A stretch of 21,422 nucleotides of DNA, taken from Comamonadaceae bacterium (GTDB lineage: Bacteria; Pseudomonadota; Gammaproteobacteria; Burkholderiales; Burkholderiaceae). The stretch lies in the NCBI GenBank assembly GCA_947377705.1, contig CANCGU010000018.1, forward strand, positions 1 to 21,422, in the 5' to 3' direction. The translations under genes and the position numbers were made by a program. The stretch's first letter is position 1. Each line of letters opens with the position of its first letter. The notes under the pieces were generated by a model, which was not told the DNA's origin, ran no database searches, and worked only from the letters and a program-made list of their open reading frames with translations. Positions 1,251 through 21,422 of the stretch are shown here, piece by piece.

Positions 1251-4133
1251 TTAGCCAGTGTTGCGCAAACCTGCCGCAATGCCGTTGATGGAGATGTGAA
1301 TGCCGCGCTGGGCTTTCTCATCACGGTCTTGCGGCCGCTTGCCTTCGCGGTAGCGACGAATCAACTCCACTTGCAAATGGTGCAGTGGGTCGATGTAGGG
1401 GAAGCGGTGACGCATGGAGCGTTCCAATGCCGCGTTGTTCACCAAACGTTGCTTGTCGCCCGTGATGAGTTTCAAGGCATCTGAAGTGCGGTGCCATTCT
1501 GCTTCTATCAAACCAAAAATCTTCTTGCGCAAGCGGGTGTCGCTGACTAACTCGGCGTAGCGTGAAGCCAGCCCTAAGTCGCTCTTGGACAACACCATGT
1601 CGAGGTTCGACAAGAGTGAGCGGAAGAAGGGCCATTGACGCTGCATTTTTTGCAGCAAGGCCAACGCGTCTTTGGGCTTGAGCGTGGGGTGCTGGTGGAT
1701 GAACTGGTCCACGGCCGAGCCAAAACCCAACCAGCCTGGCAGTGTCAAACGACATTGACCCCAGCTAAAGCCCCAAGGAATGGCGCGCAAGTCTTCAATA
1801 CGCGGTGACGCGTTGCCGCTCTTGGGGCGTGCCGCAGGGCGTGAGCCAATGTTGAGTTCTGCAATTTCGCGCAAGGGCGTGGAAGCAAAGAAGTAGTCGG
1901 TGAAGCCCGGCGTCTCGTACACCAAGCCACGGTAAGCAGCCATGCTGGCGTGTGAGAGCCACTGCGCGGCATCCAAAAAGGCTTGTGGCGCTGGCTTGGT
2001 GGTTTGCAACAGCGTGGCTTCTAAGGTGGCGGCCACCAAGGTTTCTAAATTGCGGCGGCCAATTTCTGGGTTGGCGTATTTGGAGCCAATCACTTCGCCT
2101 TGCTCGGTCAGACGAATTTGCCCGCGCACCGTGCCTGGGGGCTGCGCCAAAATCGCTTGGTAGCTGGGGCCGCCGCCACGACCGACTGTGCCGCCACGGC
2201 CATGGAACATGCGCAAGGTGATGTCATGTTGTTTGAACAACCCATCAAACAAAGTGACCAAGGCAATCTCGGCACGATAAAGCTCCCAGTTGCTGGTGAA
2301 GATGCCGCCGTCTTTGTTGCTGTCCGAATAGCCCAACATGATGTCTTGCTCGCCACCGCTGCGTTTGACCAAGTTGGCCACGCCGTCGATGGCGTAGAAG
2401 CCACCCATGATGTCGGCGGCACAACGCAAGTCTTCGATGGTTTCAAACAAAGGCACCACAATCAAATCGCACGTCGATGTTTTGCTGTTGAGGGTGCCGC
2501 GCATCAAGCCTGTTTCTTTTTGCAGCAACAGCACTTCGAGCAAGTCGCTCACGGTTTCGGTGTGGCTGATGATGTAGTGGCGAATTGCGTCTTTGCCAAA
2601 TGTTTCCAACATCTCGCGTGCGGTTTCGAAAATCGCCAGTTCTTTGAGGGCGAGTTCGGAATAGTTGGCGCCCATCACGCGCAGCGGACGTGCGTCGTGC
2701 AGCAACTGATTGAGAACATTGACGCGTTGTGCTTCATTGAGCTTGGCGTAGTTTTTCTCCACGCCTGCTGTGGCCAGCAATTCGGCGACGACCAACTCGT
2801 GTTGGTCAGAGCTTTGACGCAAGTCCACCGTGGCGAGGTGAAAGCCAAACACTTCCACCGTACGCATGAGCGGCGTGAGGCGTTGGGCCATCAAGGCGCT
2901 GCCATGTTGGGCTTCAAGAGATTCGGCAATCACGCGCAAATCGGCCAACAGTTCTTGGGCTGACAGGTACGGGTTTTGTGGCGCCACAGCATGGCGCGCC
3001 GCATCGCCTCCTGTGAGGCCTTTGAGCGTGGCAGCCAAACGTGCGTACATGCCCGTGAGGGCGCGGCGATAGGGCTCGTCTTGGCGGTGCGCGTTGGTAT
3101 CAGGCGAGCGGTCGGCCAAGGCATGCATCTCTGGCGTGACATCGACCAACATGGCCGACATCGACAACTCGGTGCCGAGGTAGTGCAGCTCGGTCAGGTA
3201 GTGGCGCAAGGCCACATCACACTGGCGGCGAAGCGCAAAGCGTAGCGTGTCAGCATTGACGTTGGGGTTGCCATCGCGGTCACCGCCAATCCATTGGCCC
3301 ATGCGCAAAAAGCTGTGCACATGGGCGTGGCCCAACTCGGCTTCGAGGTCGGCGTAGAGCTTTGGAATTTCGCTCAAGAAGGTGGACTCGTAATAACTCA
3401 GTGCATTTTCGATTTCATCCGACACGGTGAGCTTGGTGAAGCGCAGCAAACGGGTTTGCCACAACTGCAACACGCGTGCACGCAATTGCATTTCGTTGGC
3501 TGCCAATTCACGCAGAGCCAGTGCATCAGGTACAGCTTTGGCTGACGCGTGTAGCGCTGAGCGTGATTTGATGTCGTCGCGCAAACCTAGCAGCTGGGCA
3601 ATGCCACGCTCGGCATCCAAGATACTTTTGCGCTGCACTTCGGTGGGGTGAGCGGTGAGTACAGGCGACACATGGCTGTGCGCCAATGTTTGTACGATGC
3701 TCTTGGGCGCAATGCCGGCGGCCTTGAGACGACTCAAGGCGACAGACAAGCTGCCTTCTTGCGTGTGGCCTGCGCGTTCATGAATGGCACGGCGGCGAAT
3801 GTGGTGTCGGTCTTCGGCAAGGTTGGCCAAGTGACTGAAGTAGGTGAAGGCGCGGATGACGCTCACCGTGGCTTCGGCGCTCAGCGAGGCCAAGAGTTTT
3901 TTCAGGGCTTTGTCAGCGTTGGCATCGGCGTCGCGGCGAAAGGCGACCGAGAGTTTGCGCACTTGTTCGACCAACTCATAGGCTTCTTTGCCTTCTTGTT
4001 CGCGAATGACATCGCCCAAGATGCGGCCCAAGAGTCGAATGTCTTCAACCAAGGGACGTTCGTTCTCTTTGGCTTGCTGTGTGGCTCTGGCTGCTGCAGT
4101 GGGTTTGGCTTTGGCTGAAGTTTTGTCAGTCAT
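1251..4133 (-). CDS. ppc: Phosphoenolpyruvate carboxylase
   Basis: The cytoplasmic anaplerotic enzyme that converts phosphoenolpyruvate and bicarbonate into oxaloacetate and phosphate. The 960-residue product has all the family landmarks: the catalytic histidine block Leu-Thr-Ala-His-Pro-Thr-Glu near residue 162, the Gly-Tyr-Ser-Asp-Ser-Asn-Lys-Asp segment, the glycine-rich loop [14 protein letters not shown], and the characteristic C-terminus [11 protein letters not shown]. Length is a little above the E. coli enzyme because of an Ala/Lys-rich N-terminal tail. I chose the ATG at 4133; the frame stays open to a TTG at 4211, but those 26 extra residues are low-complexity and abut the glk stop codon. 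It is the last gene of the minus-strand series, 78 bp after glk, and a terminator follows. Its place behind ED genes suggests that carboxylation is co-regulated with sugar breakdown. Confidence 0.97.
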
Positions 4134-4211
4134 ATGGTGCTCTAGTTTGTGATGTTTGAATTTGGTTCTTGCGTTTGATTGCTGTGCTCGCTTGGCTACA
4201 GGGGAATGCAA
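4134..4211 (-). other. glk-ppc intergenic gap
   Basis: A 78 bp gap, the largest inside the hexR-to-ppc series. I see no hairpin, HexR-like palindrome or convincing promoter. A short GAG about 8 nt before the ppc ATG is the only ribosome-binding candidate, and it is weak. Confidence 0.5.
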
Positions 4212-5222
4212 CTAGAACCATTGCGTTAATGACAAAGCCTGCGACGCACCTTGCAATGCTGGCGACACGGGGCTGTGAATCACCCAGGTCGGTACTTCTT
4301 GCAAATACTTTTTGAAACGACCTTTGGCTTCAAAGCGCTCACGAAACGGTGAGGCATCAAAACGTTCGCCCAAGCGCGGCACGATGCCGCCACCAATGTA
4401 GATACCGCCGCGTGCGCCCAGCGTTAAGGCCAAGTCGCCTGCAACGGAGCCCAAGAACCCACAGAACATATCCAGCGCTTCGTTGGCGGTGGAGGTGGGG
4501 ACTTCTTGGGCGCGTTCTAATACTTCGGCGGGTGTGGTGATTTCGCGTCCTTGACCGTCTTTCAAATCACATAAGGCGTGGTACAGATCGACCAAGCCTG
4601 CGCCAGAAATCACGCGTTCGGCAGAAACATGGCCGTAGCGTTTTTGTAGTTGCTGAATGGCTGCAAACTCGTGTTCCGTGGTGGCGGTCAGGCTGACGTG
4701 GCCCCCTTCGCCCGCGATGGGTATCCATTTGTTTTGATAGCCCACCGGGAACAAACCCGAAACGCCCAAACCGGTGCCTGGGCCAATCAAACCAATGGCG
4801 GCATTCGGTGTCGCCGTACCGCTGCCGACTTGGCGCTTTTGCGATTCGGGCAAGCGTGTGAGCGACAAAGCCAAGGCCGTGAAGTCGTTGAGCAGCAAAA
4901 AGTGCGACACACCCAAACCTTCGCGCAAAGCGTTGACTGAAAACTTCCAGTGGTGGTTGGTCATGGCCACTTGATCGCCCGTGACAGGGTTGGCAATGCC
5001 AAAGGCCGCGCAGGGTGGGGCGCTCAGGCCTTGCTCTGTGAGATACGTTTGTGCAGCGGCCAACAACGATTCGTGTTCGGCACAAGGCAACACTTGTACA
5101 TGGCTGATCGGTGCACCTTCCTGCGCTTGCCAGCCAAAGCGGGCATTGGTGCCGCCGATGTCGCCCAGCAACCGTGGATAAGCTGCTGCGTTGGCCACGG
5201 TTGGATCGCGTGACTCAAACAT
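4212..5222 (-). CDS. glk: Glucokinase (E. coli Glk type)
   Basis: Phosphorylates cytoplasmic glucose with ATP to glucose-6-phosphate, the entry metabolite for Pgi/Zwf. The 336-residue protein carries the hexokinase-like phosphate-1 loop Gly-Asp-Ile-Gly-Gly-Thr-Asn-Ala-Arg at about 20-28, the Leu-Asn-Asp-Phe segment with the probable catalytic base Asp113, the Gly-Pro-Gly-Thr-Gly-Leu-Gly nucleotide loop, the Gly-Glu-Gly-Gly-His sugar-binding block, and the Gly-Gly-Ile-Tyr-Ile-Gly-Gly-Gly-Ile segment near the end. These mark the Glk family rather than ROK kinases, as there is no ROK Cys-x-Cys-Gly-x-x-Gly zinc motif. The ATG begins only 3 bp after the pgi stop, so translation is probably coupled. 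Next to a sucrose-splitting enzyme, it would handle the glucose half. Confidence 0.95.
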   Translation of the reverse strand: MFESRDPTVANAAAYPRLLGDIGGTNARFGWQAQEGAPISHVQVLPCAEHESLLAAAQTYLTEQGLSAPPCAAFGIANPVTGDQVAMTNHHWKFSVNALREGLGVSHFLLLNDFTALALSLTRLPESQKRQVGSGTATPNAAIGLIGPGTGLGVSGLFPVGYQNKWIPIAGEGGHVSLTATTEHEFAAIQQLQKRYGHVSAERVISGAGLVDLYHALCDLKDGQGREITTPAEVLERAQEVPTSTANEALDMFCGFLGSVAGDLALTLGARGGIYIGGGIVPRLGERFDASPFRERFEAKGRFKKYLQEVPTWVIHSPVSPALQGASQALSLTQWF

Positions 5223-5225
5223 GCA

Positions 5226-6836
5226 TCACGCTTTCAGGCGTGCCGCTTCTGCGGCTTCAATATCTTTAGCCATTTTCTTGCCCAGCTCGACGCCCCATTG
5301 GTCATAGGCGTGGATGCCCCAGATCGCGGCTTGGCAGAACACCTTGTGTTCATACAAAGCCATGAGCGCGCCCATGCTGCGTGGCGTGAGCGCGTCCACC
5401 CAAATGGTGGTGCTGGGCACGTTGCCAGGGTAGCTGCGGTGTGGGGCCAAGCGCTGAACTTCGGCTTCATCCATGCCGCTGTCACGCAGCTCATGCACGG
5501 TTTCTTCAGGCGTACGGCCGATGGCTAAGGCTTGGGCTTGGGCTTGCATGTTGAGCAAGACCACGCGGTGATGTTCGGCTGCAAACGGCAAGGGGCTGCG
5601 CTCGGTGCGCAAACCAATGAAATCCATCGGCACCAAGTGCTTGCCTTGGTGGATGAGCTGGAAGTAGGCGTGTTGACCGTCAATGCCTAAACCGCCCCAC
5701 AACACAGGCGCGGTGGCCACTTCAACAGGACTGCCATCAATGTGCGTGCCCTTGCCGTTGGACTCCATGTCCATTTGTTGCAAGAACGAGGCGAACTTAC
5801 CCAAGGGCGAGGCGTAGGGTGCAATGTTGTGCGTGGTGGCGCCCAAGAAATTGCGGTTCCATACGCCAAACAAGGCCATGAGCAAAGGCAGGTTCTGGTC
5901 AGAAGGCGCGGTGAGGAAATGCTCGTCCATGGCGCGTGCGCCCAAGAGCATGTCTTGGAAGGCAAAGGCGCCAATCGAGATGGCCAAAGGCAAACCAATG
6001 GCAGACCACACCGAGTAACGGCCACCGACCCAATCCCAAAAACCAAAGGTGTGCTCAGGCGTGAAGCCTTGTGCAGCAGAGATTTGTGGGTTGGCCGTCA
6101 CCGCAATCAGGTGTTTGCCCAATTGGTCAGTGGGGCAGCCACCGTCGGTTAACCAGCGCTTGGCCGAGGCCGCCAAAGTCATGGTTTCTTGCGTGGTGAA
6201 AGTTTTGCTTTGCACCACAAAGGCGGTGCGTGCCGGGTTGAGGTAGGCCAGTGCGGTGTACAGGCTCCACGCGTCCACGTTGGACACATAGTGGACGCGC
6301 ACTTTGTTTTTGAAGCTGTCGCGCGTCAAGTGACTGAGCGCTTCAGTGGTCATGCGCGGGCCGAGGTCTGAGCCGCCAATGCCGAGGTTGACCACATCGG
6401 TGATGGACTCGCCGCCAAAGCCTTTCATTTGACCTTCGCGCACTTTCTCCGCGAAAGTACACACACGGTGCAATTCATTCGCGACTTGCTTAGAAATTTC
6501 ATGGCCCCAAGGTGGGTTGGGTACATGGCTGCCGCGCAAGGCGACGTGCAACACTGCACGTTGTTCGGTGGCGTTGATGGGCTCGCCTTTGAACATGGCT
6601 TGTGCTTGTGGCATGACTTGTGATTCGTCAGCCAAAGCCAAGAGTTGTGCCATAACTTCGCGTGTGACGCGTTGGCGTTCGTAGTCGATGCTGATGCCAG
6701 CGCCACTGGCATGCAAGGCCGCGTTGCGTTCTGGGTTTTTCAACAACTCACGCAAATGTGGTTGTGACCCTTGAGCCAAGGCTTGCAGGGCTTGCCATGC
6801 TTGGCGTTTGTGTGGGGGGACGAATGGGGTCATCAT
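5226..6836 (-). CDS. pgi: Glucose-6-phosphate isomerase
   Basis: Interconverts glucose-6-phosphate and fructose-6-phosphate. The 536-residue protein shows Gly-Ile-Gly-Gly-Ser-Asp-Leu-Gly-Pro at about 152-160, the signature Val-Gly-Gly-Arg-Tyr-Ser-Val-Trp-Ser at about 270-278, the catalytic glutamate in Met-Glu-Ser-Asn-Gly-Lys-Gly (about Glu358), the Gly-Gln-His block (about His389), and the C-terminal signature Gly-Val-Glu-Leu-Gly-Lys. Two adjacent ATG codons (6836 and 6833) could both start it; ribosome binding is weak for either. It follows eda by 70 bp and precedes glk by 3 bp. With no phosphofructokinase in the window, Pgi here probably runs from fructose-6-phosphate to glucose-6-phosphate, bringing fructose carbon into the ED route. 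Confidence 0.97.
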   Translation of the reverse strand: MMTPFVPPHKRQAWQALQALAQGSQPHLRELLKNPERNAALHASGAGISIDYERQRVTREVMAQLLALADESQVMPQAQAMFKGEPINATEQRAVLHVALRGSHVPNPPWGHEISKQVANELHRVCTFAEKVREGQMKGFGGESITDVVNLGIGGSDLGPRMTTEALSHLTRDSFKNKVRVHYVSNVDAWSLYTALAYLNPARTAFVVQSKTFTTQETMTLAASAKRWLTDGGCPTDQLGKHLIAVTANPQISAAQGFTPEHTFGFWDWVGGRYSVWSAIGLPLAISIGAFAFQDMLLGARAMDEHFLTAPSDQNLPLLMALFGVWNRNFLGATTHNIAPYASPLGKFASFLQQMDMESNGKGTHIDGSPVEVATAPVLWGGLGIDGQHAYFQLIHQGKHLVPMDFIGLRTERSPLPFAAEHHRVVLLNMQAQAQALAIGRTPEETVHELRDSGMDEAEVQRLAPHRSYPGNVPSTTIWVDALTPRSMGALMALYEHKVFCQAAIWGIHAYDQWGVELGKKMAKDIEAAEAARLKA

Positions 6837-6906: not shown

Positions 6907-7551
6907 TTAATTTACGTTTGCCGCTGCCGTCGCTTCACGGGCCAGTCGGGTGATTTCAGCCCAATCACCACGTTCGACCACCTCTATCGGCGTGAGCCAT
7001 GAGCCTCCCACCATCGCCACATTGGGTTGCTTCAAGAATTCACCCATATTGGCCAGCGATACGCCCCCTGTGGGGCAAAAGCGCATATCGCCCAAGGGGC
7101 CGCCCAAGGCTTTGAGCATGGCCAAGCCGCCGGCTTGTGCTGCGGGAAAGAGTTTGACCAGGCCAAATCCATAGTCACGCGCGGCCATCACTTCACCGGG
7201 CGTCATCACGCCGGGCATGAACGGCAGTTTGCAATTCATGGCCGCTTGCACGAGTGCATCGGTCATGCCGGGTGAGAGTGCAAAACTGGCTCCCGCGGCT
7301 TGCACACCGGCCATTTCTTCGGCGCGTGTCACCGTACCTGCCCCCACATGCATCTGTGGGACATGTTTGGCGACTTGTTCAATCGCAGGCAAACCTGCGG
7401 CATGGCGCAAGGTGATTTCCATCACATCCACGCCGCCTTCAAGCAGAGCGTGTGCCATGGGCACGGCTTGGTCTGGGTGAGTGATGACGATGACAGGCAC
7501 CACGCGTGAGGTGAATGCTGGACGGGTGAAAGCGGGGTTGAGTTGGGTCAT
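6907..7551 (-). CDS. eda: 2-dehydro-3-deoxy-phosphogluconate (KDPG) aldolase
   Basis: The last ED-pathway enzyme: it cleaves KDPG into pyruvate and glyceraldehyde-3-phosphate. The 214-residue class I aldolase has the expected active site at the same numbering as the E. coli enzyme: Glu45 in Val-Met-Glu-Ile-Thr-Leu-Arg, Arg49, and the Schiff-base lysine Lys133 in Val-Lys-Leu-Phe-Pro-Ala. The phosphate-binding Pro-Thr-Gly-Gly-Val loop follows at about 163. Full length and intact. It lies 12 bp after edd on the same strand. KDPG, its substrate, is the known effector that releases HexR from DNA, so Eda activity would tend to restore repression of its own operon. Confidence 0.97.
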   Translation of the reverse strand: MTQLNPAFTRPAFTSRVVPVIVITHPDQAVPMAHALLEGGVDVMEITLRHAAGLPAIEQVAKHVPQMHVGAGTVTRAEEMAGVQAAGASFALSPGMTDALVQAAMNCKLPFMPGVMTPGEVMAARDYGFGLVKLFPAAQAGGLAMLKALGGPLGDMRFCPTGGVSLANMGEFLKQPNVAMVGGSWLTPIEVVERGDWAEITRLAREATAAANVN

Positions 7552-7563: not shown

Positions 7564-9396
7564 TTAGAGGTGTGTGAATAAAGGCGATGCGCCTTCTTCG
7601 GCCAGTGCAGCATTGGCGCGGAACAAAGCAAAGATGTCTCGGCCAGTGCCATATTGGTTACCAGACAAATCTGGCTCAGGGGCTGTGCGTGTGGCGAGTT
7701 CTGCATCGCTCACTTCGAGCTGCAAAGTTTGGGTGTCGCAGTCGAGCGCAATCATGTCGCCGTCTTGCACTTTGCCAATCAAGCCGCCGTTGACGGACTC
7801 AGGGCTAAGGTGAATCGCGGCAGGCACCTTGCCTGATGCGCCCGACATGCGGCCATCGGTGAGCAAGGCGACTTTGAAGCCTTTGTCTTGCAACACACCG
7901 AGCACGGGCGTCAAGCGATGCAGCTCAGGCATGCCGTTGGCTTGTGGGCCTTGGTTGCGCACCACGGCCACGAAGTCGCGCTCGAGCTTGCCTTCTTTGA
8001 AGAGTTGGCCAAGTTGTTTTTGATCAGTCAGCACAATGGCAGGGGCACGCACTTGACGGTGTTCGGGTTTGACGGCCGAGACTTTCACCACGGCTCGGCC
8101 TAAATTGCCTTGTAACAAACGCAAGCCGCCATCGGCGCTGAAGGGGTTGGTCACAGGGCGCAAGACCGCTTCATCGGCAGACTGTGCGGGCACATCACGC
8201 CAATCGAGTTGACCGTTCAACGCTGGGTTGAGCCAAGGCTCCACGGCATAGCGGTGCAGGCCTTGTCCCATGATGGTCTGCACATCGTCGTGCAGCAAAC
8301 CTACGCTGAGCAACTGAGCCATCAAATAGCCCATGCCACCGGCGGCTTGAAAGTGGTTCACATCGGCGCTGCCGTTGGGGTACACACGGGCGAGCAAGGG
8401 AACGCAAGCGGAGAGATCAGAGAAGTCATCCCAGTTCACGATGAGACCCGCAGCGCGGGCCATGGCGACGATATGCAACGTGTGGTTGGTCGAGCCACCT
8501 GTGGCTAATAAACCTACGATGCCGTTGACGATGACTTTGGCGTTGATTTGGTAGCCAATGCCTGCTGCTTTGTTTTGCGAAAGAGCGACTGCGCGTTTGA
8601 CGGCATCGACGGTCAGGGCCTCGCGCAAGGGTGTGCCCGGATTTACAAACGACGAGCCAGGCAAATGCAAACCCATGATTTCCATGAGCATTTGGTTAGA
8701 GTTGGCCGTGCCGTAAAAAGTGCAGGTGCCTGCGCTGTGGTATGCAGCTTGTTCGGCTTCGAGCAACACTTCGCGGCTGACCAAACCTTGTGCGTATTGC
8801 TGACGCACTTTGGCTTTGTCGTCATTTGACAAACCAGAGGTCATGGGGCCCGCGGGTACAAACACCGCAGGCAAATGACCAAACTGCAAAGCCCCGATGA
8901 AGAGGCCGGGGACGATTTTGTCGCACACGCCTAAGAACAGTGCGGCATCAAACACGTTGTGCGACAAGCCTACGGCCGTGGCCAACGCAATCACATCGCG
9001 TGAAAACAATGACAGCTCCATGCCATCTTCGCCTTGGGTCACGCCATCACACATGGCGGGCACGCCACCTGCGACTTGGGCTGTGGCACCTGCGGCTCGA
9101 GCTGCTGCACGGATTTTTTCCGGGTAATGCTCATACGGTTGATGGGCTGACAGCATGTCGTTGTAGGCCGTGATGATGCCAACGTTAGGTTGACGCTCTT
9201 GGCGCAGCACCAGTTTGTCGTTGGCAGGCATTGCTGCATAAGCGTGAGCTGCATTGGCGCATCCCATGCCGCCACGGTAAGGGCCGGGCTTTTTGGCTTG
9301 GGCCAACACGTCCAAATAGGCTTGGCGTGTTTGTGCGCTGCGTTGTTCAATGCGTGCGGTGACCGTGGCGAGGGTGGGGTGTAGAGGTGTGGTCAT
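7564..9396 (-). CDS. edd: Phosphogluconate dehydratase
   Basis: Dehydrates 6-phosphogluconate to KDPG, the defining first step of the ED pathway. The 610-residue protein (E. coli Edd is 603) belongs to the IlvD/Edd iron-sulfur dehydratases. Likely cluster ligands sit in Met-Cys-Asp-Gly-Val-Thr-Gln-Gly (Cys116), Gly-Val-Cys-Asp-Lys (Cys158) and [10 protein letters not shown] (Cys225). The C-terminal [10 protein letters not shown] block is intact. The frame is open upstream to 9486, but that stretch lies inside pgl in another frame and the ATG at 9396, 5 bp after the pgl stop, is the natural start. No good Shine-Dalgarno is seen, so expression probably depends on coupling to pgl. Confidence 0.97.
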
Positions 9397-9401: not shown

Positions 9402-10145
9402 TCAGTTGGCAAGCCAAAGCGCCACAGGCGTTTGGGTTTGTTGCAACACAAAGGAAATCGGCAAGGCAGGTGTGGCTTGCTTCCAAGCCTGCTGCAAGGT
9501 ATTGAGTTTGTCAGCGCCTGTCAGTGGCAATACGATGTGACGTGCTGACAGAATTTGCGCCAAGGTTTGGCTGATGCGTGCATAGGGGGCATTGGCGGGA
9601 GGATGGGCCAACTCAATGGCCACACAGGTTTGTGTGTTGCGCAAATCCATTGCCTCTGCCAAATTGGGCGCCTCTGGAAATAAAGAAGCCGTGTGGCCGT
9701 CTGCGCCCATGCCTAACACTAACACGTCAGCCGGACTCGCTGCGAGCAAGGCAATCCCTGCTGCTTTGGCTTGTGCTGCAGGTGTGTCCAAAGGCTCAGA
9801 GGCACTGGCCACCATGAATACCAGTTGGGCCTTGGCCGCGAGGTCTTGTTGCAAATGGGTTTGAACCAACAGCGCATTGCTGTCCGGGTGGCTGCGTGGC
9901 ACGCAACGCTCATCCACCAAAGTGATACGCACGCGCGACCAATCGATGTCAATCACACGCAGCGCTTCAAACAAAGCCACGGGAGATTTACCGCCAGACA
10001 CACTCAGCACGGCAAAACCGCGTGCTTGAATGGCTGCAGCTAAACGTTGTGCAATGTCTTGTGCCAAACGCACATTCAGCTCAGCTGGGCTGACGGTGTG
10101 TACCGTCAATGATCCGCGTGATTCAGGGTGCCATGTGCTGTGCAT
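9402..10145 (-). CDS. pgl: 6-phosphogluconolactonase (DevB/Pgl type)
   Basis: Hydrolyses 6-phosphogluconolactone, the Zwf product, to 6-phosphogluconate. The 247-residue protein has the sugar-isomerase-like loop Ser-Gly-Gly-Lys-Ser-Pro at about 50-55, the Val-Asp-Glu-Arg-Cys-Val-Pro strand with a following Ser-Asn at about 77-90, and the signature [13 protein letters not shown] with the expected catalytic His151. This is the DevB family, not the beta-propeller YbhE type. Its ATG shares one base with the zwf stop (TAATG), and it ends 5 bp before edd, which points to one co-translated unit. Confidence 0.95.
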
Positions 10146-13506: not shown

Positions 13507-14803
13507 TGGTTTTCACACGAAGCGTGAGCAATGCCGCAATGCCCAAGAAGCAGCCGGCCAATTGAATGACATGCCTTGGGTCGCTGCCCAACAAGCTGTT
13601 GTAATACAGCGGCAATGTGAGCATCTGAATGATCATGGGTAAGACAATGAACATGTTGAAGATGCCCATGTACACGCCAGCACGCTCAGGTGGAATGCTG
13701 CGGGCCAACATGATGTAGGGGTTACCCATAATGCTGGCCCAAGCCAAGCCAATGCCCACCATAGGGACAAACAACAACGCCGTGTCTTGTATGTTTGGTA
13801 AGCACCACATGCCAACGCCTGCAAGTGACAAACAGGCTGCATGGACCAATTTAGGTCCAAAGCGTCGCGTCAATGGAATGAGAGCGAAGGCTGCCACGAA
13901 CGCTACAAAGTTGTAGAAGCCACCAATTTGCCCGTTGAGCAAACTCGCATCACGAAAGCCTTGTGACGAAGCATCCGATGTGCCAAACACTGATTTGGCG
14001 ACTGAAGGCACGATGTAAATCCAGTAACACATCATGCCGTACCACTGGAACAGTTTCATCCACCAGAGTTGGCGCATGGCCTGAGGCATCTCGCGCACAG
14101 CTTCCACAATTTCGGCCAGTGTGGCTTTGATGCCGGTAGGCTTGGCCAAGATGGCCTCACGCTCTTGGTTTGTCAAAGGCAGTTCAGGCGTCGAATGCAC
14201 TGACCACCACACCGTAGTCAATGACAGTAGCGAGCCAATCAAAAATGCAATGACCGTGATGTGTGGAATATTGCTGTCATTGACTGCATCTTTGTTCAAA
14301 CCAAACCAAAAAAGGAGTGAGGGCGTGAGGTAGGCCAAGGTTTGTGCCAAACCTGTGAATGCGCTTTGGGTCAAAAAGCCCAATGAGTGTTGGTTGGTGT
14401 TGAGCCGGTCACTCACGTAAGCACGGTAGGGCTCCATGGTTACGTTGTTGGCAGCATCCAAAATCCACAGCAAGCTCGCAGCAAACCACAGGGTGGGGCT
14501 GAACGGCATGAACAGCAAGCAGATGCTGCACAAGATTGCGCCAATCATGAAGAAGGGCGTACGACGGCCCCATCTGCTGATGGTGCGGTCACTCACCGCT
14601 CCAATGATGGGCTGCACCAGCAAACCCGTCATCGGGCCCGCAAGCCACAGCAAAGGCAAGCTGGCCTCGTCTGCACCTAAGTATTGGTAGATGGGACTCA
14701 TGTTGGCTTGTTGCAGGCCAAAGCTGTATTGGATTCCGAAGAACCCGAAGTTCATGCTGAGGATTTGCCAAAACGACAGATGCGGTTTGAGGTGTGTGCT
14801 CAT
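13499..14803 (-). CDS. MFS sugar transporter (SLC45/GPH-like sucrose or maltose carrier)
   Basis: A 434-residue inner-membrane carrier with about 12 hydrophobic segments, expected to move a disaccharide from periplasm to cytoplasm with a cation. The first helix ([14 protein letters not shown]) and the loop Gly-Ala-Val-Ser-Asp-Arg followed by Trp-Gly-Arg-Arg-Thr-Pro at about 68-83 are typical of the plant-SUT/SLC45-like group. Pro-Tyr-Arg-Ala-Tyr-Val-Ser-Asp also fits that group. The ATG overlaps the stop of the GH13 gene by 4 bp (ATGA) and no Shine-Dalgarno is visible, so translation is probably coupled. Genes of this type sit beside amylosucrase-family enzymes in the Xanthomonas sux locus (SuxC). 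Sucrose is the likely substrate; maltose is the main alternative. Confidence 0.88.
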
Positions 14804-16737
14804 TTTTTAAGCCAGATGGCTGAGTAGGGGGCGAGCTGCAAACCTTGCAGTTCAAGTGCCTTGCCTGAAATTAAATCAGTGCCATACGTTATGCAATTTT
14901 GCGTGATTGCTGGCGTGGGCGATAAGGTTTGTGGTTGTCCTGAGAAATTGAATAGACCCAGGACATTGCTGCCGCGCTTCAAACCCAACACAGCGCTTGT
15001 GCCGGTATTCCAAACGCTCAATGGATGCGTGGCACTCAAACTGCTATTTTGCTTTTTGGCTTGAATGAATGCGCGCAGTGCGGCATAAATTTGGCCTTGC
15101 ATCGTGGACGCGTCATGGCGATTGGCAAAGCTGTGTTCATCAAACATGGGGCGATGCAACTCACGGCCATCGGGGCCTTGACGCTGAGCAATCTCTTGTG
15201 CCGAAGTGTTGCCTTGGCCCCATTCGTCGCCCATGTAAATCAGCGGTAAGCCACCCACAAACAAAGACAAGGCCTGCATCATCACCAAGCGTGATTTGGC
15301 AGCTTCTTGTTCTGCTGGCGTTTTTGCGGATGTCAAGCCCACTAAGGCAGCGGCCATGCCGTTGGTGCCGTGCACAACCGTGGGGTCGCTTGCTTGAAAG
15401 GCCGCGCCTTGTGCATAGCTGCCAGAAACCTCCCCCGCAAAGAATTGCGATGCATGCAGCAGGCGTGCGCGTTGATCCGCACCGCGTGCATCCATCTCCG
15501 GGCGCAGCACGTTCCAGCCAATGTCGTCATGGCAGCGCACATAGGTCATCCATGCGCAGCCATCGGGTAGGGCGGGGGTGTGCGAAAGCACGTCTTGAAT
15601 GATTTGTGCGTTCTCTTCAGCTAAGGCCACCCAGCTCGCTGACATGAGGCTGGAGTGATAGGCCACATGGCACTCTGCGCCTTTTGTGTCACCCAAACCA
15701 AAGTAGGGCGGCAAGTCTTGCGTGGGCATGATGGCCTCGGCCTTCAGCAACACGCCGGGCGCGGCAATGTTGGTCAGGCTGCGCATGGCTTGCAAAATCC
15801 AATGCACTTCGGGCTGGTTCATGCAGTTGGTGCCTGGGCGCTTCCACAAGAAACCTGTGGAATCTAAACGGAAAGCCTCTACGCCTAAATTTGCCAGTTG
15901 CAACAGCGACTGAGCCATTTCTGCAAACACATCGGGCTGTGTGTAGTTCAAATCCCATTGGTAGGGGTAGAACGTGGTCCATGCCCAAGCCTTGACTTCT
16001 GGAATGAAGGTGAAATTGCCAGGGGCTGTGTTGGGGAAGATTTGAATCAGATTTTTTTCATGCGCGGCCACTTCCTCGGACGTTTTTGCCCAATGAAAGT
16101 ACGACTGATAGTGCGCATCGCCCGCACGAGCCTTCAAAGCCCACTCGTGCTCGTGTGAGACGTGGTTCAACACAAAATCACTGCACAAGCTGATGCCTGC
16201 GGCGCGTAACTCTTTGGTGAGTGTTTGTAAATCTTGGTTGTTACCCAATGCTGGGTCAACTTGGTCATAGCTGGCGACTGCAAATCCGCCATCGTTGGGT
16301 GGTGTGCCGGGCTTCAAGAAAGGCAGCAAGTGCAAGTAGGTCACACCCAGTTCTTGCAGATGGGGAATGCGCTGACGCACGCCAGACAAGTTGCCTGCAA
16401 ACTTGTCGGTGTAAGCGCAATAGCCTAAAGAGCCTTGCAAGTGCCAGTTGGGTTGTGAGGCACGTTGAATATCTAATCCCCACAAATCATCGGGACGAGA
16501 CAACGCGAGGTGTAATGACTGAATCACTATTTGGTTCAACCAATCAGAGAAATTCTTATTGCCGCCGTATAAGCGAGATAGCCTGTCGCGCAGAACAGGG
16601 AACTCGACATTCAGACGTTCGCGCAAAACAACTGCGCGAGTTATGGGGGCGCTTTCAAGCAGCTCATTGATGCGAGCTGGAAGATGGGCCTGTCCGGATA
16701 TGACGTGGCGATCTTCAATGAGGGGCATAGTGTTCAC
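14800..16737 (-). CDS. Amylosucrase / sucrose hydrolase family enzyme (GH13_4)
   Basis: A 645-residue cytoplasmic GH13 enzyme (no signal peptide), close in length to Neisseria amylosucrase and alignable along its whole length from memory. Catalytic residues: nucleophile Asp292 in Phe-Arg-Leu-Asp-Ser, acid/base Glu334 in Lys-Ala-Glu-Ala-Ile, and transition-state stabiliser Asp404 in Arg-Cys-His-Asp-Asp-Ile-Gly-Trp. The pair that closes the sucrose pocket in amylosucrase (Asp144-Arg509) appears as Asp149 (in Asp-Gly-Gly-Phe) and Arg525 (in Arg-Glu-Leu-His-Arg-Pro). Differences: Phe152 replaces the stacking tyrosine, and Ile231 replaces an arginine of the glucan acceptor site. It may therefore mainly hydrolyse sucrose to glucose and fructose rather than build alpha-1,4-glucan. 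The start is GTG at 16737; the ATG at 16728 is an alternative, and neither has a good ribosome site. It resembles SuxB in role and context. Confidence 0.88.
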   Translation of the reverse strand: MNTMPLIEDRHVISGQAHLPARINELLESAPITRAVVLRERLNVEFPVLRDRLSRLYGGNKNFSDWLNQIVIQSLHLALSRPDDLWGLDIQRASQPNWHLQGSLGYCAYTDKFAGNLSGVRQRIPHLQELGVTYLHLLPFLKPGTPPNDGGFAVASYDQVDPALGNNQDLQTLTKELRAAGISLCSDFVLNHVSHEHEWALKARAGDAHYQSYFHWAKTSEEVAAHEKNLIQIFPNTAPGNFTFIPEVKAWAWTTFYPYQWDLNYTQPDVFAEMAQSLLQLANLGVEAFRLDSTGFLWKRPGTNCMNQPEVHWILQAMRSLTNIAAPGVLLKAEAIMPTQDLPPYFGLGDTKGAECHVAYHSSLMSASWVALAEENAQIIQDVLSHTPALPDGCAWMTYVRCHDDIGWNVLRPEMDARGADQRARLLHASQFFAGEVSGSYAQGAAFQASDPTVVHGTNGMAAALVGLTSAKTPAEQEAAKSRLVMMQALSLFVGGLPLIYMGDEWGQGNTSAQEIAQRQGPDGRELHRPMFDEHSFANRHDASTMQGQIYAALRAFIQAKKQNSSLSATHPLSVWNTGTSAVLGLKRGSNVLGLFNFSGQPQTLSPTPAITQNCITYGTDLISGKALELQGLQLAPYSAIWLKK

Positions 16738-16751
16738 AATTCGGTATGAGA

Positions 16752-16778
16752 TGTGCTGAGCCTTGTGGGCGCAGCACA
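16752..16778 (-). other. Small inverted repeat in the amylosucrase leader
   Basis: TGTGCTG and CAGCACA, 13 nt apart, could form a 7 bp hairpin in the mRNA 15 nt before the GTG start. It is not followed by a T run. It could be a translation-tuning or mRNA-protecting stem, or chance. Confidence 0.35.
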
Positions 16779-16794
16779 GTTAATCTTCAAGTAA

Positions 16795-16828
16795 AAGAAA
16801 CCAAGTCGCTTGCGCGTCTTGGTTTCTT
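16795..16828 (-). terminator. Terminator-like hairpin between the receptor gene and the amylosucrase gene
   Basis: An 11 bp perfect stem (AAGAAACCAAG with its complement) and a 12 nt loop begins 9 bp after the receptor stop codon on the minus strand. The transcript then runs into a T-rich tail (TTTCTTTTA). It probably stops or weakens transcription after the receptor gene, so the downstream sugar genes rely on read-through or on their own promoter, which I could not identify. Confidence 0.75.
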
Positions 16829-16836
16829 CATGAGTT

Positions 16837-19062
16837 TTAGAACTCGTACTTCAAAGTTGCTTTGGCGCTACGACCTGCCAAAGCGCGAGCGGCGTGGCCG
16901 TCGCCTTCAACTTCTGTGAAAGCCAATTTGTTGAAAGCGTTGTTGACGCTAACAATTGCAGAGGCTTGTTTGTTGATGCGGTAGTTCGCAAACAAGTTAG
17001 TGATCACGTAACCATCCATTGTGATGGTGTTGGCATCGTCACCGTATGACTTGCTAGAACCAATGAATGCAGCACCATACTCAAGATCACCTGTACGGTA
17101 CGAAGGAGACAATGCGTACATGAGGTCAGCTTGGCGGCGTGGCTTCTTGCCCACTTCAGCAGCTGTCAAAGAGCTCTTGATCTTTGCATCTGTGATGGTG
17201 GCGCCAGCGCTCAGGCGGAATGCCCCAGAGCGATAGCCTGCCTCAAGCTCGAAACCTTTGGCATCGTAGCTATTGGTGGTGAACTTTTGTGTTGTGGCTT
17301 CGTAGTTCGACTCGTCAGTTTGAGCCATGAAGAACGATCCAAACAAGCTCAGGTTACCTTCGCGGTGCTTGATGCCCAATTCTTGTTGTTTCAGACGGTT
17401 GAATGAAACAGGTTTGCTGCCATTTAATGAGCCGGCAGTGCTATACAACAGACGGTCCGCGGCAAAGTTGTAGCCATCGCTCAGGCGGGCAAAGAAAGCG
17501 GTGTCTTTGTTCAGGGCGTAGTTAGCGCCACCAGAGTAAGACATCTTGCTTTGCTTGTAGTTCACCGTGTCAGCTGATGCGGCATTCCATGATGCGCTCG
17601 ACAGAGATGTAGCGTTGGTAGGTGTCGAGCCTTGGAATGTTTGTCCTGTCGCTGACATGTCGTTTTGGCGGACGCTACCTTCAACCGTCAACTTGTCTTT
17701 TTCCCAGCTCAGGGCAGCGTATGGTGCAGTCACGTTGTACTTCACGTCGTAAGTACGCGAGCAGCAACCACCCCATGTGTTCCATCCGCTAGATACGGGT
17801 GCAGACCAAGAACCATTTGTGCCAACTGTGTATTGGTTCCAGAACCAAGTTTGGCCCAAGTTTTGTGAGCCAGTGAACAAGCCACCGGTAAACACAGACT
17901 TGCCACCGTTCATGTCAAATGACTTGGAGGCTTTCAGATCGTTGAACATGTTGTCCATGTTGTCCAGCGATGTGTTAAACATGGTGCCTGTGAATGTATT
18001 GCCACCGTTGCCGTTGTCGGCAGGGAACATGCCTACAAAGCGTCCGCCATTGGTGCTCTTACGCATTCTTTCTTCAACAGTCCAACCGCTGTCCAAGTTC
18101 AACTTGGCTTCCAAACCGATAGATCGGCTGGTGACGTGCAAACCATCGGCAGGGTTTGTTGTGACTTGATTGCCATTGCGATCAATTGTGGTGTCACGCG
18201 TCATGTTGGGGTTGATGAAGAACGCATTGCGTGGATCAATACCTGGCAATGTTTGGATACTGCCATTCGTCACTTTAGTTGGTACTGGCAAGATGGTGGG
18301 TGTCTTGTCGTCCAGGTTTTTGAAGTTCACGCGAACGTAGCTACCTTTGTCCAACTCTTTGGTAACGCTGGCTTTGAATTGACCGCCGTCTTGTGAGTTG
18401 AAACCTGTTTTGAATGGACCGCCTTCACCTTGGCGTGTGAAACCACCCATGTTGAAGTAGGTGTCGGCACCCATTGCGCTGCCGAAGTTGAAGTCATAGC
18501 GGTTCAGACGTGAACCCAGGCCTGTGGTCACGCCAACAGCATTTCCCACGTCGCGACCTGCTTTGCTCACGAAGTTGATGATGGCGCCAGGGGCATTGCT
18601 TGCCAAGGTTGAAGCGCTTCCGCCGCGAACCACTTCGACGCGGTCTGTTGTGAAGTCTGTGCGCATGAATTGGTCTGGTGTGCCAAAGGCAATGTCACCA
18701 AACAACAAAACTGGCAATCCATCTTCTTGCATTTGTACATAACGGCTGCCACCTGCGGACACAGGAGCGCCACGCACCGTGATGTTTGCATTGCCTTCAC
18801 CACCGGAAGATTCGGCGCGAATACCTGGGATAGAGCGCAAAATTTCAGCGGCACTGGTAGCGCCGCTGCGCATGATGGCTTCTTCGCCCACTGAGGTGAC
18901 TGAGTCGCTCGACTTCATTTTTGTGCGACCCGTTGGAGAGGCCGTGACAACGACTTCGTCGAGGTTCAAGTTTTGCGCATACACCGCACCAATTTGCATT
19001 GCGGCCAATGAGGCTGCAACTGCAATCGTTTTTGGACTGATTGTTTTCTTGTTTGCTTTCAC
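16837..19062 (-). CDS. TonB-dependent outer-membrane receptor, probably for sucrose or a related glucoside
   Basis: A 741-residue outer-membrane active transporter. Residues 1-29 form a signal peptide ending Val-Tyr-Ala, and a TonB box Asp-Glu-Val-Val-Val-Thr-Ala follows at about 35-41, next to the mature N-terminus. The plug domain has Arg-Ser-Ile-Pro-Gly-Ile, a Val-Arg-Gly block and Val-Glu-Val-Val-Arg-Gly-Gly-Ser-Ala. The rest is barrel-like with Asn/Gly/Thr-rich loops and ends in Lys-Tyr-Glu-Phe, the expected C-terminal aromatic. The GTG start is supported by AAGGAG 6 nt upstream. Adjacent cysteines 433-434 lie in a probable extracellular loop. Substrate is inferred from the neighbours (amylosucrase family, MFS carrier, fructokinase), as in the Xanthomonas sux locus; the sequence alone does not give it. 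A dedicated tonB-exbB-exbD cluster diverges from it. Confidence 0.92.
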   Translation of the reverse strand: MKANKKTISPKTIAVAASLAAMQIGAVYAQNLNLDEVVVTASPTGRTKMKSSDSVTSVGEEAIMRSGATSAAEILRSIPGIRAESSGGEGNANITVRGAPVSAGGSRYVQMQEDGLPVLLFGDIAFGTPDQFMRTDFTTDRVEVVRGGSASTLASNAPGAIINFVSKAGRDVGNAVGVTTGLGSRLNRYDFNFGSAMGADTYFNMGGFTRQGEGGPFKTGFNSQDGGQFKASVTKELDKGSYVRVNFKNLDDKTPTILPVPTKVTNGSIQTLPGIDPRNAFFINPNMTRDTTIDRNGNQVTTNPADGLHVTSRSIGLEAKLNLDSGWTVEERMRKSTNGGRFVGMFPADNGNGGNTFTGTMFNTSLDNMDNMFNDLKASKSFDMNGGKSVFTGGLFTGSQNLGQTWFWNQYTVGTNGSWSAPVSSGWNTWGGCCSRTYDVKYNVTAPYAALSWEKDKLTVEGSVRQNDMSATGQTFQGSTPTNATSLSSASWNAASADTVNYKQSKMSYSGGANYALNKDTAFFARLSDGYNFAADRLLYSTAGSLNGSKPVSFNRLKQQELGIKHREGNLSLFGSFFMAQTDESNYEATTQKFTTNSYDAKGFELEAGYRSGAFRLSAGATITDAKIKSSLTAAEVGKKPRRQADLMYALSPSYRTGDLEYGAAFIGSSKSYGDDANTITMDGYVITNLFANYRINKQASAIVSVNNAFNKLAFTEVEGDGHAARALAGRSAKATLKYEF

Positions 19063-19068
19063 AAACGT

Positions 19069-19186: not shown

Positions 19187-19200
19187 TGCAAACGTTTGCA
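19187..19200. promoter_or_regulatory. LacI-family-type operator 1 (receptor side)
   Basis: TGCAAACGTTTGCA is a perfect 14 bp palindrome with the central CG step typical of LacI/GalR-family operators. It lies 125 bp upstream of the receptor start codon. The cognate repressor is not encoded in the window. Confidence 0.8.
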
Positions 19201-19386: not shown

Positions 19387-19401
19387 TGCAAACGATTGCA
19401 A
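19386..19401. promoter_or_regulatory. LacI-family-type operator 2 (tonB side)
   Basis: TTGCAAACGATTGCAA has perfect TTGCAA arms and a central CG, with one mismatched base pair. Its inner 14 bp differ from operator 1 at one base only. It lies 49 bp before the tonB ATG and directly behind the predicted -10, so the receptor gene and tonB probably answer to the same regulator. Confidence 0.75.
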
Positions 19402-19450: not shown

Positions 19451-20041
19451 ATGAAAGACTACGCCAGTCAACAACGCAATCCAGGCAAGCACGTTGTCGG
19501 ATTGAGCCTGGTGGTTTTGTTGCACATCATCTTGTTTTGGGCGATCAGTTCTGGCCTTGCCAAGAAGTTCGTCAAAGTGATCAAGGGGCCCGTTGAAGCT
19601 CAATTGATTGAAGATGCCAAACCTGACATTCCACCGCCACCGCCACCGCCTCCGCAAAAGAGTGCGCCTCCGCCGCCACAAGATTACGTGCCGCCGGTTG
19701 ATATTGCAGTGAATGCACCAGGCGGTGCCAATGCGATTGCTTCTGTCTCTGCCGCCCCTGTGCGCACAGCGCCGGTGGTGAATGCTGCGGCCAACTGTCC
19801 GAAGCCTGAGTACCCCAGTGCTTCGCGCCGCAATGAAGAAGAGGGCACGGTTCAGTTGCGCTTCTTGATTGGTACCGAAGGCCAAGTGCTGGAGTCGCAA
19901 ATCGAGAAAACCTCTGGCTACACGCGATTGGATGAGGCCGCACGCATTGCCTTGTCACGCTGCCAGTTCAAACCCGGCACGCTGAACGGCAAGGCTGAGC
20001 AAAGCTGGGCCAGCATGAAATACACATGGCGCTTGGAATAA
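19451..20041 (+). CDS. tonB: TonB energy-transducing protein
   Basis: Couples the proton-motive force harvested by ExbB-ExbD to the outer-membrane receptor. The product has 196 residues: a short cytoplasmic N-terminus, one membrane anchor at about 15-35 containing a histidine (Val-Leu-Leu-His-Ile-Ile-Leu-Phe-Trp) as in the TonB anchor, a proline-rich periplasmic spacer with an eight-proline run at about 60-80, and a C-terminal TonB domain from Pro-Lys-Pro-Glu-Tyr-Pro through Gly-Thr-Val-Gln-Leu-Arg-Phe to the Ser-Gly-Tyr/Leu-Asp-Glu-Ala helix. The ATG at 19451 is chosen because AGGAG lies 10 nt upstream and the anchor then starts at the usual place; an open frame back to 19265 adds 62 residues unlike TonB. 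First gene of a tonB-exbB-exbD-exbD series divergent from the sugar receptor. Confidence 0.93.
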   Translation: MKDYASQQRNPGKHVVGLSLVVLLHIILFWAISSGLAKKFVKVIKGPVEAQLIEDAKPDIPPPPPPPPQKSAPPPPQDYVPPVDIAVNAPGGANAIASVSAAPVRTAPVVNAAANCPKPEYPSASRRNEEEGTVQLRFLIGTEGQVLESQIEKTSGYTRLDEAARIALSRCQFKPGTLNGKAEQSWASMKYTWRLE

Positions 20042-20094: not shown

Positions 20095-20940
20095 ATGATT
20101 AAACAAATCAAAACTTTTGCGTTGAGCGCTGGCCTTGTTGTAGGCTTGATGTTCGGCATGGTCGGCCAGGCGCAAGCGGCCAAAGAGAAAGCTCCTGCAG
20201 CAGCACCCGCTGCCGCTGAAGTGGCAGCACCCGCACCTGTGGCTGCGCCTGCACCAGCACCCGCTGCAGCAGCTCACGCTGGCGAAGAAAACCCATACGG
20301 TTTGAGCGCTTTGTGGGCGCAAGGTGACGTGGTGGCCAAGGGCACATTGCTGATCTTGGTGATCATGAGCATGGGCAGCTGGTACGTGATCTTCACCAAG
20401 TACTTTGAGCAAGCCAAGATCATCCGTTTTGCCAAGGCTGCACAAGACAGCTTCTGGTCAGCAGGCAATGTGCGCCAAGGTGCAGACACCTTGGCCGAAG
20501 ACAGCCCCTTCCGCTTCATTGCTGAAAAAGGCTTGGAAGGTGCAAGTAAGCACACAGGTATGTTGGGTGCGATCAACTTCAACGACTGGGTGACCATGAG
20601 CATTCAGCGCGCCATCAACAACGTGCAAAGCCGCATGCAAGATGGTTTGGCTTTGTTGGCGACCGTGGGTTCTACAGCACCATTTGTCGGTTTGTTCGGC
20701 ACCGTTTGGGGTATCTACAACGCGTTGGTGAAGATCGGCATGTCCGGCCAAGCCAGTATCGACAAAGTGGCTGGTCCTGTGGGTGAGTCACTCATCATGA
20801 CGGCCATTGGTTTGGCTGTGGCTGTGCCTGCGGTGTTGGGCTACAACTGGTTGGTACGTCGCAACAAGTCGGCCATGGAAGATGTGAATGCTTTTGGGTC
20901 TGACTTGCACTCTGTGCTGCTCGGCACCAATAACAAGTAA
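20095..20940 (+). CDS. exbB: ExbB, proton-channel subunit (MotA/TolQ/ExbB family)
   Basis: Forms with ExbD the inner-membrane proton channel that energises TonB. The 281-residue protein has an N-terminal signal-like helix (1-28, ending Ala-Gln-Ala-Ala), an Ala/Pro-rich linker of about 35 residues, then three membrane helices: about 82-100, a second in Leu-Ala-Thr-Val-Gly-Ser-Thr-Ala-Pro-Phe-Val-Gly-Leu-Phe-Gly-Thr-Val, and a third in Ala-Ile-Gly-Leu-Ala-Val-Ala-Val-Pro-Ala-Val. The last two are the MotA/ExbB signature. The N-terminal extension is also seen in other long ExbB proteins. AGGAG lies 9 nt before the ATG, and the gene follows tonB by 53 bp. Confidence 0.95.
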   Translation: MIKQIKTFALSAGLVVGLMFGMVGQAQAAKEKAPAAAPAAAEVAAPAPVAAPAPAPAAAAHAGEENPYGLSALWAQGDVVAKGTLLILVIMSMGSWYVIFTKYFEQAKIIRFAKAAQDSFWSAGNVRQGADTLAEDSPFRFIAEKGLEGASKHTGMLGAINFNDWVTMSIQRAINNVQSRMQDGLALLATVGSTAPFVGLFGTVWGIYNALVKIGMSGQASIDKVAGPVGESLIMTAIGLAVAVPAVLGYNWLVRRNKSAMEDVNAFGSDLHSVLLGTNNK

Positions 20941-20955
20941 TCAGGAGTCACCATC

Positions 20956-21369
20956 ATGGCGATGAATGTTGGATCTGATGGGGATGACGAGATCATCAAT
21001 GCCATCAACACCACCCCACTTGTGGACGTGATGTTGGTGTTGCTGATCATCTTCTTGATCACCATTCCCGTGGTGACCACATCGGTGAAGGTGGATCTTC
21101 CTAAAGAGAAAAACCTGATCCGAGAGACTAAACCAGAGAATGTGATCATTTCGGTGAACGCTGCAGGCAATATTTACTTGTACGACACACCGATCAAGAA
21201 TTCTGCGGACTTGGTCAACCGAATGAAAACTTTTGCGGTGAAAGACCCGCAACCCGAAGTGCAAATTCGCGGTGACGCTCGAAGCGACTTCGAGTCTGTG
21301 GGGCGCGTGATGTATGCCGTGCAGCGTGCAGGTATCGTCAAGGTCGGTTTCATCACCGAACCTAACTGA
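20956..21369 (+). CDS. exbD: ExbD, first copy (TolR/ExbD family)
   Basis: The 137-residue partner of ExbB. A short cytoplasmic Asp/Glu-rich tail leads into Ile-Asn-Thr-Thr-Pro-Leu-Val-Asp-Val-Met-Leu-Val-Leu-Leu, which contains the membrane aspartate (about Asp24) needed for proton movement. The periplasmic ExbD domain follows. AGGAG lies 8 nt before the ATG, and the gap after exbB is 15 bp. Length and layout are normal. Confidence 0.95.
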   Translation: MAMNVGSDGDDEIINAINTTPLVDVMLVLLIIFLITIPVVTTSVKVDLPKEKNLIRETKPENVIISVNAAGNIYLYDTPIKNSADLVNRMKTFAVKDPQPEVQIRGDARSDFESVGRVMYAVQRAGIVKVGFITEPN

Positions 21370-21384
21370 TCGAAGGAGATAAAC

Positions 21385-21422
21385 ATGGGAATGAACATCG
21401 GCCAAGGATCAGGCAGTGGTGA
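21385..21422 (+). CDS. Second ExbD-like protein, 5' end only
   Basis: Only 12 complete codons are visible, cut by the window edge. AAGGAG lies 7 nt before the ATG, 15 bp after the first exbD. The start (Met-Gly-Met-Asn-Ile-Gly then Gly/Ser) resembles the N-terminus of the first ExbD (Met-Ala-Met-Asn-Val-Gly-Ser). Tandem exbD copies are common in Burkholderiales and Xanthomonas TonB clusters, so a second ExbD is the best reading. Confidence 0.7.
   Translation, partial: MGMNIGQGSGSG

Follow-up and report, generated by a model that had tools for sequence, protein, structure and literature searches.

A probable sucrose-uptake cassette docked in a variable slot against a conserved Entner-Doudoroff operon in a Limnohabitans-like bacterium, with predicted control by two repressors

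In Pseudomonas, the genes of the Entner-Doudoroff (ED) pathway are grouped with those for glucose uptake (ABC/OprB), and the HexR regulons of proteobacteria have reportedly been described by Leyn et al. in 2011. Uptake of sucrose is described for the sux locus of Xanthomonas campestris, which, according to the excerpted text of that report, is composed of suxA, suxB, suxC and the repressor gene suxR, where uptake requires both SuxA and SuxC, SuxR represses and sucrose induces (PMC1790865). In the same excerpt, SuxB is called an orthologue of the sucrose hydrolase SUH, suxA is dispensable for growth on 20 mM sucrose, and the role of TonB-ExbBD in sucrose uptake is left unsettled; seven more TonB-like proteins might substitute (PMC1790865). 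Here, we describe a 21,422-nucleotide stretch of DNA from a Comamonadaceae bacterium (contig CANCGU010000018.1, positions 1 to 21,422; below, the window), in which genes resembling the sux set are directly followed by hexR and an ED operon.

The reading that we favor, at a probability of roughly 0.73, is that the conserved ED operon of a Limnohabitans-like bacterium is flanked by a variable slot in which a sucrose-uptake cassette has docked, with control by two repressors. The genes, their order, the slot, and the palindromes with their genome-wide restriction are directly established. The window has a G+C content of 54%, and the record closest to it is from a Comamonadaceae metagenome-assembled genome (L001, G001; G and L numbers denote the genomes and the loci or sequence records used for comparison). 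As an earlier reading made from the sequence alone (the sequence-only reading) had listed, its minus strand bears twelve genes, all of them open and each above the cutoff for its own Pfam family:

16837..19062, minus strand: SuxA-like TonB-dependent receptor (PF00593 and PF07715; GTG start)
14800..16737, minus strand: SuxB-like GH13_4 sucrose hydrolase/amylosucrase (GTG start at 16737, alternative ATG at 16728)
13499..14803, minus strand: SuxC-like MFS sucrose carrier (TIGR01301, sucrose/proton symporter, 95 bits, cutoff 511)
12544..13506, minus strand: fructokinase-like PfkB kinase (PF00294; best NCBIfam fructokinase NF006957, 148 bits, cutoff 450)
11608..12456, minus strand: hexR, RpiR-family regulator of the ED operon (PF01418 and PF01380)
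10145..11611, minus strand: zwf, glucose-6-phosphate dehydrogenase (TIGR00871 above cutoff)
9402..10145, minus strand: pgl, 6-phosphogluconolactonase (TIGR01198 above cutoff)
7564..9396, minus strand: edd, phosphogluconate dehydratase (TIGR01196 above cutoff; likely start ATG 9396)
6907..7551, minus strand: eda, 2-keto-3-deoxy-6-phosphogluconate (KDPG) aldolase (TIGR01182 and NF004325 above cutoff)
5226..6836, minus strand: pgi, glucose-6-phosphate isomerase (NF001211 above cutoff)
4212..5222, minus strand: glk, glucokinase (PF02685 and NF001416 above cutoff)
1251..4133, minus strand: ppc, phosphoenolpyruvate carboxylase (NF000584 above cutoff; likely start ATG 4133, reading frame open to 4211)

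The best NCBIfam matches of HexR, fructokinase, carrier, GH13 enzyme and receptor are under cutoff. The open reading frames (ORFs) as listed start too early for edd, ppc and tonB, for which 9396, 4133 and 19451 are likelier.

The receptor, GH13 enzyme and carrier of the window are 42%, 52% and 62% identical, respectively, to those of the Xanthomonas locus L070, which bears out the earlier claim of a likeness to the sux set with a fructokinase added. Common to both systems are the receptor, the GH13_4 enzyme, the MFS carrier and a LacI-type repressor, the last found in the window's relatives; the repressor of G425 is 44% identical to that of L070. Unlike in Xanthomonas, the window adds a fructokinase and has the ED operon directly downstream, and in its relatives a divergent tonB-exbB-exbD-exbD-TPR operon, which shares the operators, has the repressor gene as its last member. 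In contrast to the glucose ABC/OprB arrangement of Pseudomonas, the route predicted for the window is TonB-dependent and for sucrose, and its genes lie in an exchangeable slot. As in the HexR-controlled ED operons of proteobacteria, insofar as the excerpted text of PMC5343134 covers them, hexR adjoins zwf-pgl-edd-eda, with glk nearby and a palindrome, a candidate operator, before hexR; unlike in those regulons, a scan of 12 genomes gave the strict site at hexR only, and pgi, glk and ppc belong to the operon as well. No description of the sucrose-ED combination was found in the open-licence literature; the modules are known, and their combination and the slot are apparently undescribed.

The slot becomes visible when congeners are compared. 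Among 84 genomes of the genus (40 of them with a completeness of 90% or more and a contamination of 5% or less), hexR is present in 21 at an E-value of 1e-100 and the carrier, at the same cutoff, in six. The hexR neighborhood was read in all 21, some shortened by contig ends. Only the sucrose set stands beside hexR in three of these genomes (G001, with its murI side on another contig, G421 and G401), as in the window, and only a ROK-FucU-ABC-PfkB cassette in seven (G081, G185, G470, G424, G456, G400 and G468; the fucU or ATPase gene is uncalled in some). Two harbor both cassettes (G425, contiguous, and G261), while in five (G324, G461, G435, G443 and G403) hexR directly adjoins murI with no sugar cassette. 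The locus of G454 is broken by contig ends, and G430, G434 and G416 are arranged otherwise. The same ED operon thus faces differing sugar cassettes or none, with constant borders. The ROK-FucU-ABC-PfkB cassette, which from its families would be an inner-membrane ABC uptake system for a monosaccharide of the fructose/ribose type, uses the same slot beside hexR-ED as the sucrose set, but without a TonB receptor, and four other genera have it ahead of zwf (G168, G115, G074 and G125). Type I restriction-modification-like genes, recognized by eye from sequence starts, lie between hexR and the cassettes in G261 (L192, L152).

On the other side of the receptor, the window holds two putative operators and a divergent set of genes for a TonB complex:

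19187..19200, no strand assigned: putative LacI/SuxR-type operator TGCAAACGTTTGCA, receptor side
19387..19400, no strand assigned: second putative LacI/SuxR-type operator TGCAAACGATTGCA, tonB side, 200 bases from the first
19451..20041, plus strand: tonB (PF03544; ATG at 19451)
20095..20940, plus strand: exbB (PF01618)
20956..21369, plus strand: exbD1 (PF02472)
21385..21422, plus strand: second exbD, first 38 bases only, complete in relatives

The pattern TGCAAWCGWTTGCA was sought in 11 whole genomes. All eight sucrose-positive genomes (G001, which is 76% complete, G401, G421, G261, G425, G156, G082 and G186) have exactly two copies of it, both in the receptor-tonB interval and none elsewhere, and it is absent from all three sucrose-negative congeners (G081, G185 and G324); the same pattern written backwards gave zero matches in all 11. 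In the relatives examined, the two operators are 199-250 bases apart, and in G156 80 bases. The simplest reading of this arrangement is that one LacI-type repressor would hold both divergent arms. In G001, G401, G421, G425 and G261 the divergent operon is composed of tonB-exbB-exbD-exbD-TPR-lacI, followed by murI (for G261 taken from the overlapping record L003). The LacI domain was confirmed in L005, a contig of G401, where murI matches PF01177; elsewhere murI is named by likeness. The divergent tonB-exbB-exbD-exbD set named by the sequence-only reading is seen in the window as tonB, exbB and one exbD, with the second exbD cut off after 38 bases, and its assignment to the sucrose set agrees, within the genus, with the common promoter region, the paired operators and the lacI gene at the operon end in relatives.

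The ED half of the window has a candidate control region of its own, found in the 87-base gap before hexR, and a further interruption is found in the gap between receptor and GH13 enzyme:

12486..12513, minus strand: promoter-like TTGCCA-16-TAAAAT before hexR, best site of the promoter scan (10/12)
12493-12507, minus strand: HexR-like palindrome TGTAACTTAATTACA, filling the spacer of the promoter-like site
16738..16836, minus strand: 99-base receptor/GH13 intergenic gap with two stem-loops (16795-16828 and 16752-16778) formed by inverted repeats

The palindrome is, in our assessment, like the published HexR motif. In 12 other genomes the strict pattern TGTAACNNARTTAC has three matches, each directly before hexR (G401, G421 and G030). 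Because the two halves of the window bear different operators, and a separate promoter-like site, with a HexR-like palindrome in it, precedes hexR-ED, the halves are probably wired in series rather than joined in one transcript.

In the scheme that we infer for ligands, binding, induction and relay, the SuxR-like LacI repressor would sit on the paired operators when there is no sucrose and silence both divergent operons. Trace sucrose would enter via the receptor, powered by the co-induced TonB-ExbB-ExbD, and the MFS carrier, and would free the repressor. The GH13_4 enzyme would then cleave sucrose in the cytoplasm, and fructokinase, Glk and Pgi would bring both halves to glucose-6-phosphate, from which Zwf, Pgl, Edd and Eda would yield pyruvate and glyceraldehyde-3-phosphate, with Ppc refilling oxaloacetate. 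Induction of the ED genes would come one step behind, once an ED intermediate frees HexR from the hexR promoter; in known HexR proteins the releasing intermediate is KDPG. Some read-through from the sucrose operon into hexR may occur.

A number of observations weigh against this two-repressor scheme. The HexR model NF008451 gives 239 bits on the window's hexR, under its cutoff of 296, and the SuxR-like lacI gene, judging by relatives, lies past the window end. The promoter scan of the window returned 6 promoter-like sites as compared to 8.1 in shuffled sequence, i.e., such sites are no commoner than in shuffles, and for this reason the palindrome is the stronger evidence of the two. The strict HexR pattern written backwards has one match each in G401 and G185 among the 12 genomes, and the full palindrome is found before hexR in six of 23 hexR loci (window, G001, G421, G401, G430 and G030); the other loci have mostly looser or half forms such as AACTAAGTTACATT, and two have nothing. 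As regards the TonB complex, exbB is found in eight of 44 carrier-centered loci of the family, plus G001 on another contig, and G081, without the sucrose set, has an ExbB 83% identical to that of the window, which implies that this type of energizer is not tied to sucrose everywhere. Finally, the terminator scan of the window gave no terminator-like site between fructokinase and hexR, which leaves room for read-through and for a long transcript. This last observation, together with the same strand, the overlapping or close genes, and the position of the ED genes close behind the carrier, with the same operator pair, in G156, G082 and G186 (genomes without a HexR match), would fit an alternative where a single sucrose-induced transcript runs from the receptor through ppc and hexR merely fine-tunes. 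Such a transcript appears unlikely in view of the promoter-like site and palindrome that hexR has to itself in the window's clade, the stem-loops behind the receptor, and the congeners where the ED operon is alone or beside fructose-type genes. One fully continuous operon was therefore set aside as the principal reading, on the hexR promoter-like site, the palindrome and the changing slot.

These results also bear on the sequence-only reading of the window as one continuous island from sucrose to pyruvate that works as a unit. Gene content and metabolic path are as it described; the continuity is that of two modules meeting at the variable hexR/murI slot, and the series is interrupted by the 99-base gap with its two stem-loops and the 87-base gap with its promoter-like site. 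Joint control as one unit is not supported, given the different operators of the two halves, the separate promoter-like site of hexR-ED, and relatives where the ED operon adjoins a fructose-type cassette (7/21) or no sugar cassette (5/21). By its own account, that reading would be refuted if close relatives had the ED operon next to unrelated genes with no conserved linkage. Other neighbors were found, but they too are usually genes for sugar uptake, and the position is conserved.

In the wider family, the GH13 enzyme was found in 13 of 200 genomes and edd in 157 of the same number. Of 399 family genomes, 44, belonging to 24 genera, have the SuxC-like carrier (E 1e-130), and zwf and edd lie within ~10 kb of it in at least four of these 44 genomes (G001, G156, G082 and G186), i.e., in three of the 24 carrier-positive genera, so that the claimed sucrose-ED linkage does recur. 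The other 40 carrier genomes have no zwf or edd match within the stretch read, several stretches ending at contig ends. The linkage was counted by tblastn, one locus per genome (one of two carrier matches in G241 was included), because ORF calls in high-GC relatives hid genes behind shadow ORFs. Besides the carrier, 32 of the 44 loci have a sucrose phosphorylase-like gene of the G156 type, ten a GH13_4-like gene and two neither. In G156, a sucrose phosphorylase (TIGR03852 above cutoff) replaces GH13_4, and zwf-edd-eda follows 44 bases behind the carrier, as judged from ORF ends. In G082 and G186 (genus g81), the carrier is followed by zwf-pgl-edd-eda-pgi-glk after a gap of ~60-70 bases, as judged from alignment ends. 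No HexR match at E 1e-30 was found in any of these three genomes, where a single sucrose-to-pyruvate unit is plausible from the gene arrangement.

Counts of this kind could also be taken to mean that the two gene sets are coincidental neighbors brought together by genome shuffling, with a link no more than that of ordinary metabolism. In addition to the 40 of 44 carrier genomes without a zwf or edd match within ~10 kb, zwf is found downstream in only four of 80 GH13 loci (L001, L004, L005 and L012), and direct contact in the genus is confined to one small clade. On the other hand, several genera repeatedly show ED genes in contact with a sucrose or a fructose-type cassette, the borders of the slot are constant, and the genes form one biochemical path. 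Among 19 ED loci, a non-random sample taken among the top edd matches, most of which have zwf beside edd, the fructose-type cassette adjoins in six and the sucrose set in three. We consider mere coincidence quite improbable and have set it aside, the contact with sugar-uptake cassettes being recurrent. Beyond the window, we lean slightly toward a more general view in which the ED operon of Comamonadaceae would have at its edge a docking slot where cassettes are exchanged (fructose-type ABC, sucrose TonB/GH13_4, sucrose TonB/phosphorylase, both or none), with a SuxR-then-HexR relay where hexR is kept and one SuxR-controlled sucrose-to-pyruvate operon where it is lost, and in which the sucrose cassette would carry its own sucrose-induced TonB complex.

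With respect to the history of the cassette, a tree of the ED genes places the window together with G001, G421 and G401, a group that a branch with a support of 81 separates from the other genomes. The genome of G425, which harbors both cassettes, is found among fructose-only genomes, and G261 elsewhere. Several branches of this unrooted tree have supports under 50, and G131 and G030, meant as outgroups, are placed within the genus, which makes the root doubtful. Inside the genus, carrier identities drop roughly with ED identities. Because the carrier tracks the ED genes in this way, and because of the grouping of the window with G001, G421 and G401, the simpler guess is that an ancestor had both cassettes and that losses followed, rather than separate transfer into each lineage.

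The chemistry of the first cytoplasmic step depends on the GH13_4 enzyme, in which the motifs bearing the three presumed catalytic acids are retained. The nearest chains in the Protein Data Bank (PDB) are 2wpg (631 bits), 9r8i (603 bits) and 3cze (592 bits), all three of which we take to be of Xanthomonas origin, and other amylosucrases score at most 463 bits. According to the PDB names, 2wpg is an amylosucrase or alpha amylase, 9r8i an amylosucrase and 3cze a sucrose hydrolase. The shared GH13_4 family, the catalytic motifs and the names of the two best entries could suggest that the enzyme acts mainly as an amylosucrase making glucan, such that the cassette would be for storage no less than for catabolism. 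We give little credence to this alternative given the name of the third entry, the catabolic neighbors, the sucrose phosphorylase found in the same place in G156, and the description of SuxB, in the excerpt cited above, as an SUH orthologue (PMC1790865). A further enzyme variant is seen in L184, L185, L186 and L189, where a SuxC-like carrier lies near more distant GH13 enzymes (35-43% identical to that of the window).

If the reading of a docked cassette under two repressors is correct, these loci offer a natural series for plugging a new sugar into central metabolism, with the same ED core and borders, different cassettes and apparently two wirings. A TonB complex that is seemingly co-controlled with the sucrose receptor would also allow a cleaner test of TonB-ExbBD dependence than the TonB-redundant Xanthomonas. 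The locus is furthermore relevant to the question of which Limnohabitans relatives in freshwater are able to scavenge sucrose; in the excerpted text of a taxonomic paper (PMC3031073), L. australis is listed as not using sucrose, and one of the three other strains tabulated as using it weakly.

Parts of the sucrose set differ among relatives. The receptors of G261 (L152) and G454 (L215) are only 44% identical while occupying the same place in the set. Because hexR, zwf and edd of these two genomes are 98-99% alike, and the enzyme, carrier and fructokinase 89-92%, parts of the sucrose set appear to move independently. Compared with the window's receptor, that of G261 is 89% alike, while the receptors of G425 and G454 are 42-43% alike. 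The window's fructokinase is only 62% like that of G425, though the adjoining carrier is 93% alike, and these identities may point to a replacement at this end of the cassette too.

The receptor/GH13 gap of the window folds with a minimum free energy of -41.2 kcal/mol (z -6.7), and its stem-loops are not among the terminator-like sites of the window scan; they are perhaps a partial terminator or an mRNA-stabilizing element. The corresponding gaps of G401, G425, G261, G454 and G156 fold too, at -30 to -40 kcal/mol (values without a shuffle control). The stem arms differ among these relatives, and several loops are like CTCACAAGG by eye. Due to over-long ORF starts, the receptor-GH13 gaps of L200 and L204 were measured too short, and the operon gaps of L132, L134 and L012 came out negative, which is meaningless.

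Between exbD2 and lacI, the relatives have a protein of ~396 residues (L005:3650-4840 and relatives), called TPR by eye. In L005 it has no Pfam match at 1e-5; it is a possible accessory of the TonB complex. In G131 (L126/L191), ED genes directly adjoin exbD-exbD-exbB-tonB, and the stretch has no match to the sucrose receptor, enzyme or carrier.

At the outer border of the ED operon, two further features are found:

1202..1229, no strand assigned: terminator-like stem-loop between ppc and dctP, AGAAAAGCCACCC-TT-GGGTGGCTTTTCT, then TTT, found by eye and not listed by the terminator scan of the window
166..1185, plus strand: dctP, TRAP solute-binding protein (PF03480, TIGR00787)

The dctP gene is an outer neighbor that lies outside the island, and it is found near ppc in G001, G081 and G324 too.

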